Origin: a virus
Virus record (IMG/VR): IMGVR_UViG_3300025648_001244
Coordinates: 1-23,167 of that record
DNA: 23,167 nt
Reading direction: 5' to 3' (one strand)
The notes under the pieces are model-generated. The model saw only the letters and a program-made list of their open reading frames with translations, was not told where the DNA came from and did no database searches. Of the stretch, positions 1,264-22,789 are shown in pieces. Numbering within the stretch: position 1 is the stretch's first letter; every line of letters starts with the position of its first letter. Position numbers and translations under genes: made by a program.

Positions 1264-2064
1264 ATGCCCATTGAACCAACCATAGGTCTTTCGGATGCCG
1301 CACTGATTAACGCGGCCAAGAATGTTTTCGGCACCGAGCTAACGACGGAGGAGCTGCGCGAATTGTCGGCGGCGATCCGGGCGCAATCGTTTTTCTCGGC
1401 GCAAACCACCGACGAGCATTTGTTGGACCTGTATCAAGGCAAGATCGGCGGCATCCTGAATCCCGTGGCCGGCGAGGGCGAAGCGACGACGCAATTCAGT
1501 CCGGCCTATGTGCGCCAGGCCATCAAAGATTTTCTATTCGAGGCGGGCTACCGGCCGGACGAGGAACAACGCGGAACGCTGACGGACCTTTCGAGCAACG
1601 CCCGGATTAACCTGGTCGTGAAAACGAATGTGGAAATGGCGCAAGGCCAGGGGTTGTGGATCAGCAACCAGCGCCAGGCATTGTTGGATCAGTTCCCGGC
1701 GTGGGAGTTGTTCCGGGCGGAGACGCGGGTGAATGTGCGCGACTGGTTGAATCGCTGGCGGCTGGCCGGCGGGCAGACGGGCGATCCGATGGGCACCGGG
1801 TGGACCATCACGGCCGACAGCCGGATGATGGCGCTCAAGAATCATCCGATCTGGAGTTTCATCGGTTCCTCGGCGCTGTTTAAAGACGCGCTGGATACGC
1901 CGTGGCCGCCGTTTGCGTTCAACTCCGGCATGTGGGTGCGCGACGTTAGCCGCAAGCCGGCGGAGGCGGCCGGGCTGATCAAGCCGGGGCAGCAGATCAA
2001 ACCGATGACCCTGGCGCAGGCGTTCAAGACGATCCAGGCGAAAGCGCAGGAGGTGGCCGCATGA
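1264..2064 (+). CDS. putative phage head-morphogenesis-related structural protein
   Basis: A 266-aa soluble protein. The frame is open back to GTG 1213, but ATG 1264 gives a more natural N-terminus (MPIEPTIGLSDAAL). The central part RINLVVKTNVEMAQGQG, then an Arg/Trp-rich helix (RVNVRDWLNRW) and the C-terminal PPFAFNSGMWVRDVSR resemble the C-terminal portion of minor head proteins (Mu gpF/SPP1 gp7-like) in prophages. That resemblance is recalled, not computed. The stop overlaps the next ATG (ATGA at 2061-2064), so translation is likely coupled. It is unusual to find a minor-head-like protein after the gp36-like gene; it may instead be a connector specific to this lineage. Confidence 0.6.
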   Translation: MPIEPTIGLSDAALINAAKNVFGTELTTEELRELSAAIRAQSFFSAQTTDEHLLDLYQGKIGGILNPVAGEGEATTQFSPAYVRQAIKDFLFEAGYRPDEEQRGTLTDLSSNARINLVVKTNVEMAQGQGLWISNQRQALLDQFPAWELFRAETRVNVRDWLNRWRLAGGQTGDPMGTGWTITADSRMMALKNHPIWSFIGSSALFKDALDTPWPPFAFNSGMWVRDVSRKPAEAAGLIKPGQQIKPMTLAQAFKTIQAKAQEVAA

Positions 2065-2714
2065 TTTCGCTCCGCATCAAAACCGACGCCCTGGACGAGT
2101 TGGCCGCGAAAGCGCAGCAGCTCGGCCGGGAAACCGACGTCGCCATGTTCGGCGCACGCGCGGCCGGCAACCTGGTGCGCAATCATTTGATCAGCCTGGA
2201 TGCCGAGCGGCCCAACGCCCTGGGCGGCACGCGCACCCATTTTTATGCGGCCGCCGCCAAGTCGGTGCATGAACCCGTGCCCGTGGGCAAAGGGGCGGCG
2301 TTCATCATTACCCAAATCGGCTTGGCCCAGCGCTGGCTGGGGGGCGTCATCCGGGCCGGCCAGGGCGAAAGCAGCTACTCGGGCAAGGCGACGCAATATC
2401 TGGCGATTCCCGCGCGTGCCGAGGCCTATGGACTCCCGCCAAAGAACTTTGATGATTTGCAATTTGTGCCGTTGAAGGGTGGCCGCGCCATGCTGGTGCA
2501 GGCGCTCCAGACCAAATTGAAGTTTGGCCGCAAGAACAAGGCCGGCGTGCGCAAAGTGTCCGGCACCACAGTGGGCGGTTTGGTGATGTTCTGGCTGGTC
2601 AAGGAAGTGGATCAGAAGCCGGATCCGACCGTAATGCCCGAACAAGAGCAAATCGCCGAGGCCGCCCGCGCCGAGATGGACGATTACCTGAGCCACACGC
2701 TCATGAGCAACTGA
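2061..2714 (+). CDS. putative tail-completion / virion morphogenesis protein
   Basis: A 217-aa protein that begins in the 4-base overlap with the preceding stop. An N-terminal amphipathic helix (DALDELAAKAQQLG) precedes a region with RNHL and THFY, a beta-rich middle (YLAIPARAEAYG), and a C-terminal VMFWLVKEVDQKPDPTVMP with a helix. The N-terminal helix and position between connector and tail-terminator genes fit the gpG/HK97 gp10-type tail-completion proteins. The family is inferred from size, order and these pieces. The next gene starts one base after its stop, so it belongs to the same tight operon. Confidence 0.6.
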   Translation: MISLRIKTDALDELAAKAQQLGRETDVAMFGARAAGNLVRNHLISLDAERPNALGGTRTHFYAAAAKSVHEPVPVGKGAAFIITQIGLAQRWLGGVIRAGQGESSYSGKATQYLAIPARAEAYGLPPKNFDDLQFVPLKGGRAMLVQALQTKLKFGRKNKAGVRKVSGTTVGGLVMFWLVKEVDQKPDPTVMPEQEQIAEAARAEMDDYLSHTLMSN

Positions 2715-2715
2715 T

Positions 2716-3180
2716 ATGGCCACCTTAAACGATCTCACGAATGGCATTAAGACGCGTCTCACCAACGCGGCCCAAGCGAATGCCTCTGCGCCCGGCTTGG
2801 TCGGGGCGGCCATCGTGACTGAGGACACCAAGGATTTGCAGACGGAGATCAACACGGCCATTGCCAAGATTGGCATGCTGATCCTGATTGGTGAGCCGGT
2901 GTTTGAGCAAATCGCCAGCGAGCTGAGTCCCACCAGCACACTCAAGATCACGCTGGCGGTGGCCATCGGCGAGATACCGGTGGTCTGGCGCACGGCGGCC
3001 AACAAGCCCAAGGCCAAGGACGCCGCCCTGCTCGTGACCCAACTGCTGCATAACTTGCAAATTCCCGGCTTTGTGAATTTGAAGGTGACGCATTGCCATT
3101 TTGTGCCGGATAAACAACGCCAGCTTTTTGAACTAACCATCATCACGTTCATGACCGCCGCCCCGTTACCGACCCCTTAA
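2716..3180 (+). CDS. putative tail terminator protein
   Basis: A 154-aa protein starting one base after the preceding stop. It has an N-terminal helix (LNDLTNGIKTRL), a conserved-looking core in which a beta strand (LKITLAVAIGEIPVV) precedes a helix (AKDAALLVTQLLHNL), and a C-terminal strand (FELTIITFMT). This alternation and length suit the alpha/beta tail-terminator fold (lambda gpU, Mu gp37-like), which caps the tail tube. Synteny supports it: the next gene is the probable tube protein. Without a structure comparison this stays a position-based call. Confidence 0.6.
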   Translation: MATLNDLTNGIKTRLTNAAQANASAPGLVGAAIVTEDTKDLQTEINTAIAKIGMLILIGEPVFEQIASELSPTSTLKITLAVAIGEIPVVWRTAANKPKAKDAALLVTQLLHNLQIPGFVNLKVTHCHFVPDKQRQLFELTIITFMTAAPLPTP

Positions 3181-3183
3181 CCG

Positions 3184-3204
3184 CAACCAACAACCAAACA
3201 TAAT
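3184..3204 (+). repeat. 7-bp CAACCAA repeat before the tail tube gene
   Basis: Two perfect CAACCAA heptamers (3184-3190 and 3191-3197) plus a diverged third unit fill most of the 27-base gap before ATG 3208. The spacer has no Shine-Dalgarno. This is the same 7-bp pattern with a different word from the other heptad arrays here. Confidence 0.55.
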
Positions 3205-3207
3205 ACT

Positions 3208-3768
3208 ATGCAACAAAACTCGACTCCCACAGTGATTCAAACCGGCGATTTCCTGTACTTCGCCCCGGCAGGTTCGGCCTTCACCGTGCCGGCCGCCGGC
3301 ACCGTCTCCGCCACCTCCAAACCCGGCGCCGCCGATTCCATCTGGACGACCTTCGGCCTGGGCACCGTCAAGAAACCCACCATGGACAAGGTGGACGCGA
3401 AGGAAATTGAAATCATGGCCCCCATGCCCGGCACCGGCATTGTGGTGGTGCAAAACATCGTGCGGCCGGAGCGCAAGCTCAAGGTGACGGTGGAAATGAA
3501 TGAGCTGAGCCGCCTGGCGCTAGCGGGCTTTTACAAGTCTAGCTACATCCAGCTCACCGACACCTCGTTCTCGCCTCTGGGTGGCTCGGGCAGCCTGCAA
3601 GGCTGGCTCAAGCGCCAGCGCGCTGACAACGTGAATGGCAACTGGATCGTGGACGATTATTGGGTTGACCTCAATGTGACCGACCTGGCGATTGACGAAG
3701 GCAACATCATCCATCCCAAGTTTGAGTTCACCTGGCTGTATAGCTCGCTCGCGGGCAGTGCCATCTAA
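3208..3768 (+). CDS. putative major tail tube protein
   Basis: A 186-aa protein, within the usual range for siphovirus tube proteins. It is beta-rich: GDFLYFAPAGSAF at the start, a long central strand pair (EIEIMAPMPG, RKLKVTVEMNEL), and a C-terminal segment DYWVDLNVTDLAID followed by HPKFEFTWLYSS. These suit the tube fold in which one subunit forms hexameric rings. Order agrees: it follows the terminator candidate and lies upstream of chaperone and tape measure genes, although a large insertion gene separates them here. No signal peptide. Confidence 0.65.
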   Translation: MQQNSTPTVIQTGDFLYFAPAGSAFTVPAAGTVSATSKPGAADSIWTTFGLGTVKKPTMDKVDAKEIEIMAPMPGTGIVVVQNIVRPERKLKVTVEMNELSRLALAGFYKSSYIQLTDTSFSPLGGSGSLQGWLKRQRADNVNGNWIVDDYWVDLNVTDLAIDEGNIIHPKFEFTWLYSSLAGSAI

Positions 3769-3864: not shown

Positions 3865-6450
3865 ATGCACAAAGCATTTGAATCCACCCGCGCCGAAGCG
3901 ATTGACCACCAGAATCCGCCGAAGCCGCTGCCCGTGAAACCGGGCTCGGCCACCAAGCCCGCGCCGCACCCCGCCTTTAAGGGCGACGCCGCCGAACCAG
4001 TGCCGGCCAAGCCGGTCAAACAGATCACCACCGTGGTGCCGAAGATTGTGGCGGCCATCCTGCTGCTGCTCTGCCTTGGCCTGCGGCCGGCGGTGGCGTC
4101 CACGCTCATCACCAACGACATGGGCGGCCCAATTGGCGTGTCGCTCTATACCAACGCGCCGGCCCTGACCATTGCTGGCCTGACCGTGCTGGGCACCAAT
4201 GCCAACACTACCCTCACCAACGCCGGCGCATGGTCCGGCGTGCTGCTGGTGAACACGCAGAACAACTTCGCCGTGGCCACCACCTTCACGGCCTGGACGG
4301 CGACCAACAACCACAATGCCTCCTACCTGCTCGGCCTGGGGCACCTGGTCTATTACAACCCGAACACGGTCAGCGTGGGCACCATTACCAACGGCAACGG
4401 CGGCGGTGGTGGTGGTGGCGCACCGCAGGCCATTCCCGCGCCGGTTTCGGTCTGGGGCGGCACCAACAATCCCAACGGGCTGATCACCTCCGGTTACGGC
4501 AGCATCTATAACCAGTTCGATGCCGCCACTGGCACCAACCTGGTGCAGCAATGGGTCAAACAAAACCCCGCCGGCAACACGAATTGGATGGCCGTGGGCT
4601 CCACCAATTTCGCCGGGCTAAAAGTGACCAACTCCATCACCACCGGCGGCAATATGCAAGTCGCGGGGAATGCCGTGGTGATTGGGTCCTTTACCAGTGA
4701 TGGCAGCGTCTTGCATTCGGATGGTGCAGGCAATCTCACCGGCTTGTCCTTCACGGGCAGTGGTGCTGGCCTCACCAGTATCCCTTTGGCCAATGTGGTT
4801 GGAGCGGCGAGCGGGGCCACTGTGTCCACCAACACAATCCTGGCCATGGCGGCGGCACAGACGACGGCTCAGGTTTCCACTTCCGCGATTCCGGCCGTTA
4901 ACATCGCTGGCACGGTGACCAATGTCTCTTTATATCCCGAAGTGGACGCCTTCATGGCCAGCAACAGTATCGGTTCCGTTTTCGGCAAGCAGCGGCTTCA
5001 GGGCTTTGAGCAGGAGCTGAAGAGCTTCGGTTGCTGGACAAACCTGGTGGACGCGGTCATCGAGAAGCCAAATCTGCTGGGCAGCCTTTGCTCCAACTCT
5101 TTCCTGGGGCGACCGCTGGTTCTCTCCAATGTGGTTTATGATGCCTGGGGAGCGCGGTTCAATGGCTCCAACAGCGCCATTAAGCTGTTTGGGCTGGGTG
5201 GTTACGGCTTGCGAACCAACACGCTGGTGTTGGTGATGCGGCAGAACCAAACTAACACGCTATCCCTTTACAACATGGCGGCGGCCTGTTTACTCAACAC
5301 CAACACGTTCTCCGCTTGTTTGTTTGATGCCCAATGGGGTGTTTCGTTAAGCGCCCAGCAGGCCATCGCCCAACGCAACGGGACGAATCAGGTTGCCGTT
5401 GGCAACAACAACTGTATTTGTCCGTTGGGTGCCGGGAGCTACAGCTACACCGTTCCGAATCAGGACGACGGACGGACGGTGTGGGTGTTCACCTCTGATG
5501 GGAACGGGGCGGTGACCGCCTGGAAAAATGGCGTGCAGTGTCGCGTGGGGGCGTTTGCCTCCAATTTCGTTTCGCCGTTACCCGGCACCAACTACGATGA
5601 ATTGAACTCGCTGTGGCTGGGGGCCGACATCATGGGCGGGCAAGGCGGACAACCCGTCAACTGGGGCAATTTCTGCGGCCGGATTGATTGCGCCATGGTT
5701 TTTAAAGGTGTGGCTGATTCCAATCTGGTGCGCGGCATTCACTGGGCGGCGCGGTATCTCGAACCAGAGACGGACGAGTATTATTTTATCGCCGACTCGC
5801 GCGCGAGCCTGGTGAATAGCAGCCAACCGGCCTATGCGTTTTCTGACTGGCCGCATAAATTCATGGCAGGCCTGCCTTCGACCGTGGCGACCTTTCAGGA
5901 TTTGGCTCAACCGGGCACTTCTTATACATCTCAATGGAACGGCTCGCTTTCGGGCACGAACTACATTTTTCCGCTGCCGCTGTTTGTGAAGCAGCATGTC
6001 TATGACGGCTTGGGTATCAATGATTATGGTTCGGCTGGCGGCATTACCGGGCCAACCTATTATCAATACACGGCGTCGTTTGCGACCTGTTTTATGGGCA
6101 TGGGTGCAGAGTTTGTTCCAGTGTTGGTTTGGCCAATGGCAACGAATTGTGCTGACTCAAACGATGGATGGACTCTCGGGCGATACACCAACATTATCAT
6201 TGGCTCCCAGATGGTGTTGTCGAATGCCTGGCAGTTCTCCGCCGTTGCCCGCACCGACCTGCTGGGGCTGGATGCGTTGCTGGCCATCACGAATGGCGTT
6301 GCTCCGTATTCGCTGGATGGACTGCATTTCAGCAGCACCAATGGTCCGTCCGCCAATCAGTTGGTTGCGAATGAGGTTCGCAACCCGGCCCGGCCGGGCG
6401 GTGTGAGCAAGGTTTCAATCACCTACACCAATTATATCATCTATCCGTAA
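3865..6450 (+). CDS. signal-bearing LamG-like + SGNH hydrolase tail-associated protein
   Basis: An 861-aa protein. Residues 1-52 are Pro/Lys-rich; 61-73 are a hydrophobic core ending at an A-V-A/S site near 78, as in a Sec signal. A GTG at 4033 would give a standard signal peptide directly, so the true start is uncertain. A Gly7 run lies near residues 177-183, and a fibre-like repeat (GSGAGLTSIPLANVVG) near 295-310. Residues about 423-640 look like a concanavalin/LamG sandwich. The C-terminal part has the three SGNH marks: DSR with Ser645, GIND with Asn719, and DGLH with Asp818 and His821. Family members are esterases or deacetylases, so it may trim a surface polysaccharide. It sits between the tube and chaperone genes, an odd place for a secreted or fibre protein. 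Confidence 0.8.
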   Translation: MHKAFESTRAEAIDHQNPPKPLPVKPGSATKPAPHPAFKGDAAEPVPAKPVKQITTVVPKIVAAILLLLCLGLRPAVASTLITNDMGGPIGVSLYTNAPALTIAGLTVLGTNANTTLTNAGAWSGVLLVNTQNNFAVATTFTAWTATNNHNASYLLGLGHLVYYNPNTVSVGTITNGNGGGGGGGAPQAIPAPVSVWGGTNNPNGLITSGYGSIYNQFDAATGTNLVQQWVKQNPAGNTNWMAVGSTNFAGLKVTNSITTGGNMQVAGNAVVIGSFTSDGSVLHSDGAGNLTGLSFTGSGAGLTSIPLANVVGAASGATVSTNTILAMAAAQTTAQVSTSAIPAVNIAGTVTNVSLYPEVDAFMASNSIGSVFGKQRLQGFEQELKSFGCWTNLVDAVIEKPNLLGSLCSNSFLGRPLVLSNVVYDAWGARFNGSNSAIKLFGLGGYGLRTNTLVLVMRQNQTNTLSLYNMAAACLLNTNTFSACLFDAQWGVSLSAQQAIAQRNGTNQVAVGNNNCICPLGAGSYSYTVPNQDDGRTVWVFTSDGNGAVTAWKNGVQCRVGAFASNFVSPLPGTNYDELNSLWLGADIMGGQGGQPVNWGNFCGRIDCAMVFKGVADSNLVRGIHWAARYLEPETDEYYFIADSRASLVNSSQPAYAFSDWPHKFMAGLPSTVATFQDLAQPGTSYTSQWNGSLSGTNYIFPLPLFVKQHVYDGLGINDYGSAGGITGPTYYQYTASFATCFMGMGAEFVPVLVWPMATNCADSNDGWTLGRYTNIIIGSQMVLSNAWQFSAVARTDLLGLDALLAITNGVAPYSLDGLHFSSTNGPSANQLVANEVRNPARPGGVSKVSITYTNYIIYP

Positions 6451-6488: not shown

Positions 6489-6884
6489 ATGAACCACGAA
6501 CACAAAACGGTCACCCTGCTGGGTGGCAAAACAATTCCCGTGATTTTTGACGACGGCAAAATCGGCGAGCTGAAGGTGACGCAGTTCAAGCTGCGCGATT
6601 ATCAGCGCGTCTTCCAAATCTCGGATGACGAGTTTGCGCTGGTGGCCGCTGCCTGTCAGGTGCCCAAAGAAGCCATTCTCACCCTCACGCCGGAAAGCTA
6701 TGAGCTGGCGCTGACCGCCACGCGGGAGGTGAACGAGCAGGGTTTTTTCGTCTATGCCAGCCGCCAGATGGACCGGGCGGCGGTGAACCTCCGGCAGATG
6801 CCGCCGGCGCTGCTGGAGAAGTTCATAAAAAACAATGTCACCTCGCCGACGCGGTCGCCGATGATGCCGCCGCCTGCGGGCTGA
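6489..6884 (+). CDS. tail assembly chaperone, short form (gpG-like)
   Basis: A 131-aa protein in the position of the tail assembly chaperone, just upstream of the tape measure gene. The N-terminal strand pair ([27 protein letters not shown]) and following helices suit the family, which coats the tape measure during tube growth. ATG 6489 is preferred to an in-frame TTG at 6477. The gene ends at TGA 6882-6884, but a slippery heptamer at 6827-6833 allows a -1 shift into a second open frame, giving the long form listed separately. Confidence 0.75.
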   Translation: MNHEHKTVTLLGGKTIPVIFDDGKIGELKVTQFKLRDYQRVFQISDDEFALVAAACQVPKEAILTLTPESYELALTATREVNEQGFFVYASRQMDRAAVNLRQMPPALLEKFIKNNVTSPTRSPMMPPPAG

Positions 6885-7051
6885 CGCTGGATCAGGCGCT
6901 CAACATGAGCTGGGAGCGCCTGACGATGCTGGCCCAGGCGCACGAGCGCCGGGCGGCCAGGACGATGATCCAGTTCATGATTGCCGCGCAAGGAACGGGC
7001 GATTGTTGGAAAACACAAGTGGAAGCCCTTAAGAAACTCATCCATCTGTAA
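6489..7051 (+). CDS. tail assembly chaperone, -1 frameshift long form (gpGT-like)
   Basis: A -1 shift at A-AAA-AAC (6827-6833) joins residue 115 of the short form to a 72-codon open -1 frame running from 6833 to TAA 7049-7051, for a 187-aa product. The extension is protein-like: [20 protein letters not shown], then [19 protein letters not shown] and a charged C-terminal helix ending LKKLIHL. It has no good start of its own and ends one base before the tape measure ATG at 7053. In lambda and many siphoviruses exactly this arrangement yields two chaperones in a fixed ratio, with the extension binding the tail tube. The shift itself is inferred. Confidence 0.78.
6827..6833 (+). promoter_or_regulatory. 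programmed -1 ribosomal frameshift slippery site
   Basis: The heptamer A AAA AAC lies in the correct phase (codons ATA AAA AAC at 6825-6833) for simultaneous -1 slippage of both tRNAs. The -1 frame is open downstream for 72 codons while the zero frame stops 48 bases on. GC-rich sequence after 6845 could provide a stimulatory structure; I did not fold it. Confidence 0.8.
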
Positions 7052-7052
7052 C

Positions 7053-9338
7053 ATGCAACCGATAACCATCACGATCAATGCCGCCACGGTCGAGGCGGCG
7101 AATGCCATTCGCGATTTCGTGTCGCGGACCAAAAACGGTTTGTCAGAGGTCAAAGAGATTGGCCACGCCACCGAAGGCGTGTTCGCTGCGAACAAGATGG
7201 CGATCATGGAGATGGGGCATTCCGCCCGCGCCATGGTGGATGGTACGGTGGCCGGCATGGACCCGATTCGGTTGCTAGCCATGGAGGCTCCTCGGCTGTT
7301 GCAGGCCGGATCCATGATGACCGAGGAGCTCAAGACCAAGCTGCTGGGTTATCTGCCCGTGGTGGGCGCGGTGGCGGCGGCGGTGGGGGCCGGGTTTGTG
7401 GCGTGGGAATTGTTCACGGCCGATGAACGCAAGGCGGCGGAGGAAGCGCAAAAGCTGGCGGAGGCGTTGGACAAAATTCCGGCGATCCTCGAAAAAATCC
7501 ACGCCTTGGGCAAAGCCGGGCTGATGAGCGAAGCGGCGCAAAAGGAGTTTGCGGATTACCTGGGCAAGAATCCGCGTAAAAAACTATACGTTACCAGCTC
7601 GGGCGATTTGTCGGAGAACCCCCAGGAAATGCAGGATGTGCAAGTGCCCGGTGGTGAAAAGGGGGTCTGGAAGACAGCCAAACGGCTGGTGGATTTGCCC
7701 CAAGCGACGCCCGATCAGGTGAACGAATGGGAATTAAAGCAGATGCCCCAGGCGTCGGAAAATGAGGTGAAGGCAAAAAACAAACTGGCCGATTTAACCA
7801 AGCGCGCGTCGCTGGATTTGCTGGATGGGCTGGAAAAGGAGAAGGCGGAGATTCACGAGCGTTACCAAAAAGAACGGGAGGAAGTGGAACTGGCTTTGGA
7901 GCAGTCGCGTGATTTGATGAGCCAGAAGGATCAGATGGCCACCACCGAAATGATTCAGCAAAGTCATTTGGCGGAAGCGCGGGCCATCGCGGCCGCGCAA
8001 TTGCGGCATGACCAGGAATCAGCCAGGCAGGCGGCAGCGGCGCTGGCCAAATCGCGGGAAGAAGCGGCGCAGGCGGTGAAACAAAAGCTGGATGAAGTGG
8101 AGGCGGCCATCAGCATTCGCGCCGGGCAGGAGGGCGTGGTGCGTGGTCAGTATGCCGAGCGGGAATACCAGGAGCGCTACGACGCACTGGCGGCCGCCTA
8201 CGAGGCCGGCGGCCTGGCCGAGGGTGAATACACCCAAAAGCTGGCGGCGGCTTGGAAAGAACGGGTACAGGGTGTTCATGAGTATCAGGCCGAAATCCAA
8301 AAGACGCGGGCTCTCCAAGAGGAAATTGCGCGCGGTGATTTGCAGGCGAAGATTAAGAACGTGCAGGGCGACCAGTTTTCCACGCAAAGCGAAAAGGACT
8401 CCCAATTAACGACCCTTTACAGCCAGCTTGAAGCATTGAACGCTCAGCGCATCGAGGAGTTGCAATTGATCCACGCGCAAACCACGGATGTGGCGGCCCA
8501 ACTGGAGGCGGAAAAGCAAATCACAGAACTTAAGCACCAACAGGCGGACATCGGCGACAAGATGTATGAGGCGCAGAAAAGCCAGAATCCGGCCGTGGCG
8601 TTCGGGACGATGTTTGCCAATTTGCGCGACCAGGCGGAAATCAATTTCAGCACGCTGGCAACGACGTTTCAAAATGTGTTTAACACGGCCGTACAGTCCA
8701 TCAGCCATGGCATCACCGGGCTGATTGAAGGGACGATGACGTGGGGCCAGGCGCTGCGGTCCATTGCCAACAGCATTTTGAACGAGGTGATCTCGGCCAT
8801 TGTGCAAATGGGCGTTCGCTGGCTGCTCACCCAAGCTATCATGGCGATTGGCGGAAAGGCGATAGCCGCATCGGCAGCAGCAGCAAGTGCGCCGATTGCG
8901 GCGATGCAATCGGCTATTTGGACGCCACCCGCTGTTCTGGCCACGATTGCCACGCTCGGATCGGCGGCGATAGCGGCACCTGGCTTTATAGGCGCGGCGA
9001 ACGCCATGACGATGTTGACCTCATCTTTCGCCACGGGCGGTTACACGGGTGATGGCGGTGTGTTTGAACCGGCCGGCGTGGTTCACAAGGGCGAATATGT
9101 CTTTAGCCAGGCGGCCGTGAACCGCATCGGTGTGCCCGTGTTGGACGCGATGCACAACAACGCCGCCGGCAGCGGTGCCGCCGGGGCGGCCGGCGCAGTG
9201 GTGAGCAACAAGACGAATCTGGCGGTCTATGGTTTCACCGATCCCAACCAGATGATGGAGCACTTCCACAAGAGCGACGCCCATGAGGCTTACGTGGTGG
9301 ATGTGATGGCCCGCAACGCCCACAAAATCTCCCGATGA
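7053..9338 (+). CDS. tail tape measure protein
   Basis: A 761-aa protein. ATG 7053 is preferred over the frame's earlier TTG at 6981, because 7053 follows the chaperone stop by one base. The layout is typical: an N-terminal helical part, a hydrophobic segment near residues 97-121 ([16 protein letters not shown]), long charged coiled coil from about 243 to 510 (Glu/Lys/Gln/Ala-rich), a second Ala/Gly-rich hydrophobic stretch near 587-655, then the common C-terminal [11 protein letters not shown] ... [11 protein letters not shown]. It sets tail length and is thought to help DNA pass the membrane. By the usual rule of about 0.15 nm per residue the tail would be near 110 nm (inference). Its stop overlaps the next ATG by four bases. 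Confidence 0.88.
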
Positions 9339-21510: not shown

Positions 21511-21655
21511 GGGATACGCCCAATCTGAACGACCTGCCGTTACGGAATATATGCTTGGCACCCGCAGGAACTGTCCATAAAGTTGCCCCTGCCAAATGAC
21601 TTGGTTACCACAATCACTGGTTCGGTTGCTGCCCTCGTCGCGTTGGGGGATTGAT

Positions 21656-22789
21656 ATGCGCTTATTAAAGCACCTGCCAGTTCTCGCCGCTGTTTGGATT
21701 GGTGCCACCCAGTTCCTGTCGGCGGCAGACTCCGCCACCGGGCGCACCGTTCTCCCGGCCATTCCCGCAGGGCGGCTGGTGGACACCAACACGCTGGCGC
21801 GCATCTATGCCGAGGTGAAGACGCCCTTCAAATACGATGTGGTCATCCAAGGCGCAAGCCCAAATGAATTCGTGGACTGTCCGGGCGTGTTCCGCAGCGG
21901 TGACCACTGGTATATGATGTATATCGCCATCAGCAACCGGGTCGGCTACCAGACTTTTCTGGCGCAAAGCGACGACCTGCTGCACTGGCAGAAGCTTGGC
22001 AAAATCCTGTCCCTGCAAGCGGCGGATACTTGGGATCGTTTCCAGTCGGCCGGCGGTTTGTCCCTGGCGGATTACCATTGGGACGGCACGCACACGCTGG
22101 AAAAGTTCGCGGGTAAATACTGGCTCTCCTACATTGGCGGGGCCAAGCCCGGCTATGAGACCGATCCGTTGAGCATCGGCATGGCGTGGACGGAGAACCC
22201 CGCCGAAGTCAAGGAATGGAACCGGTCCGCCGAAAACCCGGTGCTGTCCCCTGCCCAGCCGGACGTGCGCGCCTACGAGGCCAAAACACTCTACAAAAGC
22301 CAAATCATCCATGACGCCGCCGAATCTCTCGGCTGGCCATTCGTGATGTATTACAACGGACACTTCAAGGCGGGTTACGAACAGATTGGCATGGCGGTGT
22401 CCCGGGACATGGTTCACTGGCAGCGCTATGGCACAGAATCGGTAATTGCCAACGGTCAGGCCCAGCAGCGTGGCATCAGCGGCGACCCGCAAATTGTCAA
22501 AATTGGGGACGTATGGGTGATGTTCTACTTTGGCGCCTTCTGGGAGCCGAAGGCCTTTGACACTTTCGCCGCCTCCTACGACCTGGTTCACTGGAGCAAA
22601 TGGACCGGCCCGCATCTGATAGACCCATCGGAGCCGTATGACCAGACATTTGCCCACAAGCCGTGGCTGGTGAAATGGAACGGCGTGGTCTATCACTACT
22701 ATTGCGCCGTCGGCAATAAAGGCCGGGTCATCGCGGTGGCCACCTCACGCAACCTGCGCCCGGGGGCGGGCACCGCCGTCCAACCCTGA
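21656..22789 (+). CDS. secreted GH43-like glycosidase (five-bladed propeller)
   Basis: A 377-aa protein. ATG 21656 is chosen because it starts a signal peptide (MRLLKHLPVLAAVWIGA, cut near AA-D25) and has a GGGGG stretch a few bases upstream; the frame is open earlier from 21596. The mature protein repeats propeller blades with W-Y/D-L-V-H-W elements: DCPGVFRSGDHWYMMY (Asp74), SDDLLHWQKLGK, EKFAGKYWLSYIGG, VSRDMVHWQRYG, SGDPQIVKIGDVWVMFYFGAFW, HKPWLVKWNGVVYHYYCAVG. This follows the GH43/GH32-type plan. Substrate unknown; arabinan- or xylan-type sugars are common in the family. The catalytic triad cannot be fixed by eye beyond Asp74 as a candidate base. Confidence 0.85.
   Translation: MRLLKHLPVLAAVWIGATQFLSAADSATGRTVLPAIPAGRLVDTNTLARIYAEVKTPFKYDVVIQGASPNEFVDCPGVFRSGDHWYMMYIAISNRVGYQTFLAQSDDLLHWQKLGKILSLQAADTWDRFQSAGGLSLADYHWDGTHTLEKFAGKYWLSYIGGAKPGYETDPLSIGMAWTENPAEVKEWNRSAENPVLSPAQPDVRAYEAKTLYKSQIIHDAAESLGWPFVMYYNGHFKAGYEQIGMAVSRDMVHWQRYGTESVIANGQAQQRGISGDPQIVKIGDVWVMFYFGAFWEPKAFDTFAASYDLVHWSKWTGPHLIDPSEPYDQTFAHKPWLVKWNGVVYHYYCAVGNKGRVIAVATSRNLRPGAGTAVQP

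Follow-up and report, generated by a model that had tools for sequence, protein, structure and literature searches.

A Tail Chaperone Gene with a Probable Early -1 Frameshift Site in a Virus of Verrucomicrobia Bacteria

Introduction

Does the tail chaperone gene of this virus encode a second, longer protein through -1 frameshifting and, if so, where would the ribosome slip? The window analyzed here spans the whole of a linear IMG/VR record (IMGVR_UViG_3300025648_001244; 23,167 bases) from a virus of Verrucomicrobia bacteria. It carries a gene for a G-like tail assembly chaperone of 131 amino acids on the plus strand (6489..6884; ATG at 6489, TGA at 6882-6884), and directly downstream, as is characteristic of frameshifted tail chaperones, lies the tail tape measure gene (7053..9338, plus strand; PHROG 339, E 1.5e-26). 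Such chaperones are a class already known (Xu, Hendrix and Duda, 2004, as represented in the papers citing it). A first-pass annotation of this DNA had placed the slip on A AAA AAC (6827..6833, plus strand), and much of its description stands: the heptamer is in phase, its first base being the third position of a codon (ATA AAA AAC), the -1 frame from there is open for 72 codons to TAA at 7049-7051, and the ATG of the tape measure gene (7053) follows one base later. The comparisons below place the slip site elsewhere.

Upstream of the chaperone gene, the frame at 3208-3768 sits where a tail-tube gene is expected and has no family match. Between it and the chaperone gene, an unusual place, lies an open reading frame of 861 amino acids (3865-6450) without a Pfam match, which has counterparts at the same place in relatives L002, L024, L026, and L027. 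At the right end of the window, 21596-22789 shows similarity to glycoside hydrolases 130/32 and could represent either host DNA or a cargo gene. The window contains no tRNA genes.

Relatives and Methods

The comparison set comprised 27 sequences, namely the window and 26 relatives, found in viral contigs and in genomes of Verrucomicrobiota and gathered by searches with tape-measure and chaperone alignments. A genome scan with the tape measure alone found none, whereas a second scan with an alignment succeeded; a tblastn search with the fused protein as query gave no match among 50,697 phage records. The viral contigs are L024, L035, L036, and L038, and the genome relatives include L026 and L027, both named Verrucomicrobia subdivision 3, as well as loci L030-L033 and L039-L053. 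No relative was removed for missing the site, duplicate records of one locus were counted once, and clustering of the set gives 20 groups at 70% identity and 19 at 50%. Part of the search for relatives used a profile that included the G-F-F residues of the putative slip site, though not their codons, which is a caveat on the relatives found. The nearest relative, L002, is 82% identical to the window in the best-matching segment and keeps both frames. AlphaFold (AF2) models were built from alignments of 8 sequences.

Some relatives have features of their own. The tape measure frames of L026 (7524-8714) and L027 (7815-9005) encode about 390 amino acids, compared with 761 in the window; their C-terminal part and the chaperone are the same as in the window, and the tails are predicted to be about half as long. 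Distant chaperone-like genes with A AAT TTC occur in L030, L032 (about 1500-3190), L031, and L033. In L030 and L032, the gene is followed by an open reading frame with a DRGHMAP nuclease motif rather than by a tape measure gene, and these two are possibly domesticated or belong to a different element. Genome G231 holds two copies of the chaperone-like gene.

Two Overlapping Reading Frames

The heptamer T TTT TTC at 6743..6749 (plus strand; zero-frame codons GGT TTT TTC) is the probable -1 slip site. From this position, the -1 frame continues without interruption past the zero-frame stop in 27/27 sequences, ending 54-119 codons beyond it. In the window, the -1 extension covers 6749..7051 (plus strand), so that the 72 codons first proposed become 100 codons plus TAA, and the full long form, join(6489..6749, 6749..7051), would have 187 amino acids. 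Synonymous recoding of each short form leaves the -1 frame open with a probability of 0.13-0.73. The product for the open overlap across the 27 sequences is 10^-12.6 if they are taken as independent, a value whose weight is inflated by their relatedness. The frame is already open from 6704, upstream of both heptamers, and its openness over the 28 codons upstream of A AAA AAC has a probability of 10^-9.6, again if the sequences are independent. This speaks for reading of the -1 frame from the T-run onward rather than from A AAA AAC alone.

As in other frameshifted tail chaperones, the -1 frame overlaps the zero frame, has no start of its own, and is kept as protein. In the window, the -1 frame holds no ATG, GTG, or TTG ahead of the zero-frame stop, and none is conserved there in the relatives. 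Ordinary gene calling would therefore miss the extension, as the first-pass annotation had pointed out.

Substitutions in closely related pairs bear on how the two readings are held. From the first heptamer place to the second, L026 and L027 differ by 5 synonymous and 0 nonsynonymous zero-frame changes; between the window and L002, the same stretch shows the opposite, with 0 synonymous and 5 nonsynonymous. Changes in the T domain of close pairs are mostly synonymous in the -1 frame (24 synonymous and 7 nonsynonymous for L026 and L035). These counts suggest that the overlap is held as the tail of the short form in at least part of the family, while the -1 frame there mainly must stay open. The -1 linker is poorly conserved at the protein level, which counts against a slip at the T-run.

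Conservation of the Slip Site

An in-phase heptamer of the form X XXY YYZ is present at the codons homologous to GGT TTT TTC in all 27 sequences, as T TTT TTC in 16, T TTT TTT in five, T TTT TTG in one, A AAT TTC in four, and C CCT TTC in one. The nucleotide pattern is kept while the encoded residues vary (GFF, DFF, SFF, DFL, INF, and GPF). The first Phe codon is TTT in 22/22, compared with 40% of Phe codons overall, and the codon preceding it ends in T in all 22 sequences with that Phe. In a column-by-column test, synonymous-codon pair identity was 1.0 at the first Phe (0.52 expected) and 0.90 at the codon before it (0.42 expected). Many neighboring columns are close to what is expected; some show smaller peaks, and one strong peak stands at +5, counted from the first slip-site codon. 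The latter is an Ala codon (window 6756-6758) that reads GCC in 14/14 sequences with Ala, where the expected pair identity is about 0.36.

The column-by-column test is less model-bound than the summed per-sequence chances. With the encoded residues taken as fixed and codon use pooled (GC3 0.73), a heptamer would arise at the slip codons with a probability of 0.03-0.19 in each sequence. Treating all 27 as independent gives summed logs of -30, a product that overstates the evidence because the sequences are related. The background of this sequence set is 2.27 in-phase XXXYYYZ per 1000 codons, with 0.08 for AAAAAAC and 0.21 for TTTTTTN, which puts the expectation for the 59-codon overlap at about 0.13 in-phase heptamers, whatever their type. 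With about 2.3 per 1000 codons as background, a lone in-phase heptamer in the overlap is weak evidence and cannot identify a slip site. The window gene holds two further in-phase heptamers besides T TTT TTC, a point against the latter as the slip site. One heptamer, G GGT TTT (6740-6746), lies in phase just ahead of T TTT TTC, overlaps it, and leads into the same -1 frame; it was rejected as the slip site, as it occurs only in the window, L002, and L041.

Taken as a whole, the sequences make it very likely that the tail chaperone undergoes programmed -1 frameshifting, and we hold with good confidence that T TTT TTC at 6743-6749 is where it would occur. This position is 84 bases upstream of A AAA AAC and 46 codons (about 138 nt) before the zero-frame stop, a distance that ranges over 31-60 codons across the 27-sequence family.

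Alternative Explanations

Slippage on A AAA AAC, as first proposed, would let the long form keep nearly the whole short form, with the heptamer acting either as the sole site or as a lineage-specific second one. The motif is canonical, in phase, and rare by chance (0.08 per 1000 codons, as above); its distance to the stop, 18 codons, is closer to what is usual, and it lies directly ahead of the T domain, with a strong hairpin just upstream (6785-6824, z -4.0) and an A AAA tetramer close to its place in L002, L026, and L027. However, conservation of the heptamer in homologues, which the first-pass annotation had named as a check, fails for A AAA AAC. It is found in this sequence only and is absent from 26/26 relatives, which keep both frames, while a heptamer at the place of T TTT TTC is present in all. 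Even L002 reads TTC ATG GCG CAA AAA TCC in place of the window's TTC ATA AAA AAC AAT GTC, and L024, L036, and L038 have no A-run there. In Escherichia coli, A_AAA_AAC ranks far below A_AAA_AAG (PMC5009743, review). Moreover, slippage at A AAA AAC would leave unexplained both the invariant upstream heptamer and the -1 frame that is open upstream of it in 27/27 sequences. Thus, we consider this explanation unlikely, and A AAA AAC is probably there by coincidence, or serves at most as a secondary site.

Explanations that dispense with ribosomal slippage fare worse. The T domain could be encoded by a gene of its own that starts within the chaperone gene or behind it, and the internal GGGAGGTG could resemble its ribosome binding site. 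Yet no start codon lies 5-12 nt after GGGAGGTG, and since the -1 frame of the window offers no start ahead of the zero-frame stop, initiation of the complete T domain on its own is excluded; the first -1 ATG, past that stop, would remove the first T helix, and we regard a separate gene as very improbable. Alternatively, RNA polymerase could add or drop bases on the T-run, with standard translation then giving the long form. Homopolymer slippage is known and a run of six T is present, but six is short compared with the runs of 9 A or T in the review (PMC5009743), and polymerase slippage does not explain the five relatives with A AAT TTC or C CCT TTC, which fit tandem tRNA slippage instead. There is accordingly very little to favor it. 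An error of sequencing or assembly, or decay of a once intact gene, might be suspected in a single record from a metagenomic contig; it is the least credible explanation of all, refuted by the relatives, in which the two-frame layout recurs (27 sequences) with protein conservation in both frames.

Candidate Stimulators

A Shine-Dalgarno-like element, GGGAGGTG (6724..6731, plus strand), lies 11-13 nt upstream of T TTT TTC, inside the spacing of 9-14 nt before the heptamer given for -1 frameshifting (PMC5009743), and may act as a stimulator of the slip. Its duplex with the anti-Shine-Dalgarno tail of 16S rRNA is calculated at -11.6 kcal/mol, while the chaperone's own start has no Shine-Dalgarno-like site. 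Elements of this type have the same spacing in most close relatives and a shifted position in several distant ones; none is present in L049, L042, and L030-L033. Against a synonymous-codon null, single-sequence P values in the close clade are mostly 0.06-0.25 and not significant, because the residues E-V favor GAG GTG.

No conserved downstream RNA structure was found as a stimulator, either by folding against shuffles or in the alignment, which counts against the proposed slip at T TTT TTC. The 61 nt directly after T TTT TTC fold no better than shuffles (z -0.04), and the downstream RNA alignment has 1 compensatory pair of 12 and a positive covariation energy. The fold of 6755-6830 reaches z -4.0, owed mostly to the hairpin at 6785-6824; this hairpin was rejected as a stimulator for T TTT TTC, being too distant from the heptamer.

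Predicted Structures and Family Matches

In the AF2 model of the short form, residues 11-90 form a confident core (pLDDT about 90) of two strands and four helices, followed by weaker helices. Codons 1-84 make up the chaperone core, and about 45 residues at the C-terminal end occur in the short form only. The dual-coded stretch (6749..6832, plus strand) thus has two readings: the short form takes its C-terminal helix from the zero frame, and the long form would take a Gly/Pro/Ala-rich linker from the -1 frame. When the -1 reading from 6749 is modeled, its first 27 residues are predicted to be disordered (pLDDT about 43) and a helical domain follows after residue 30. This T-like domain (6836..7048, plus strand, -1 frame; pLDDT 80-91) is kept across the relatives. 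Since the folded core ends at residues 84-90 in the model, the recognizable chaperone fold is predicted to stop at the proposed slip.

Against viral predicted structures, Foldseek matches the core at probability 1.0 with E 0.002-0.02, all above 0.001, and the closest models are the "pre-tape measure frameshift protein G" of Xylella phage Sano and several tail chaperones. A Foldseek search of the PDB with the core gave no significant match. In structural alignment, core residues 9-85 align to 3KLU (Z 4.4) and the HK97 tail chaperone 2OB9 (Z 3.6), modest scores over 67-74 residues at 10-13% sequence identity. Sequence families hardly recognize the protein: it scores 15.6-16.8 bits against PF10109 (Phage_TAC_7; E 0.007-0.02), below the 25-bit gathering cut-off, and E 0.19 against PHROG.

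Discussion

Both frames, the heptamer, and their conservation are observed directly, and from them we infer a slip and its likely course. Ribosomes starting at ATG 6489 would mostly hold frame and make the 131-residue short chaperone. A minority, whose size is presumed, would slip back one base on T TTT TTC, where two phenylalanine tRNAs would re-pair from TTT TTC to TTT TTT. The slipped ribosomes would continue from CGT at 6749 to the TAA, giving a long form with the shared core (residues 1-87), a flexible linker from the overlap, and lastly a helical counterpart of lambda T. If the parallel with lambda holds, the core may bind the tape measure and the T domain bring in the tail-tube protein. 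Pairing of GGGAGGTG with 16S rRNA may raise the slip rate.

Several known systems resemble this one. In lambda, the chaperone gene adjoins the tape measure gene, as here, and a -1 shift, as proposed here, joins the G core to a T domain, so that the likeness to G/GT claimed in the first-pass annotation holds for the arrangement and for the protein-conserved extension; it does not hold for the layout, as lambda uses G GGA AAG and slips 7 codons before the stop, adding 138 codons past it, whereas the long form of the window would lose the last 45 or so short-form residues and gain 100. The P2 proteins E and E+E' share the T-run heptamer, the -1 shift, and a short and a long chaperone ahead of the tape measure, and the P2 tail chaperone slips on T TTT TTG (PMC3091744). 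The weak match of the window protein to PF10109, a family named for proteins E, 41, and 14, is a further likeness, as is the identical TTTTTTG in relative L049. However, P2 slips 8 codons before the E stop compared with 46 in the window, and there is no clear sequence homology to P2 E. The predicted core aligns to the folds of HK97 gp13 and YqbN with modest scores, and no canonical heptamer was found near the stop of HK97 gp13. E. coli dnaX likewise has a Shine-Dalgarno-like sequence before its heptamer, but it is another gene with another heptamer, and the window differs in having no conserved downstream hairpin and in that the element is missing in some relatives.

A slip within about 10 codons of the stop, the sub-layout of lambda and P2, is usual rather than defining for the class. 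The annotated phage cases of the SEA-PHAGES training set have a mean slip-to-stop distance of 26 nt (PMC10885494), and our comparison of layouts covers lambda, P2, and this PRFect mean. The much greater distance in the window and its family counts against the proposed site. Neither this chaperone family nor an early slip with a long dual-coded stretch was found in the open-licence literature searched. The mechanism is known; the family is unrecognized, and its layout is unusual.

A slip at the T-run means that the two versions differ over their last third. A tentative but quite possible reading is that the frameshift swaps C-terminal domains rather than extending the protein. The short form would then end in a conserved C-terminal third that is its alone, encoded by the very bases that are read in the -1 frame as the long-form linker, and two different assembly factors would share one core, with the slip driven by the internal Shine-Dalgarno element and backed, in the window alone, by the second heptamer.

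For annotation, choosing the heptamer nearest the stop can yield a wrong junction, and PRFect, which takes slip-to-stop distance as a feature, would here favor the wrong site. For the biology of these viruses, the locus extends frameshifted tail chaperones to a Verrucomicrobiota phage family that is hardly recognized by family libraries. It would also provide a natural case of a long dual-coded stretch and of two chaperones with different C-terminal parts, in which the role of the tail end of G becomes directly testable.
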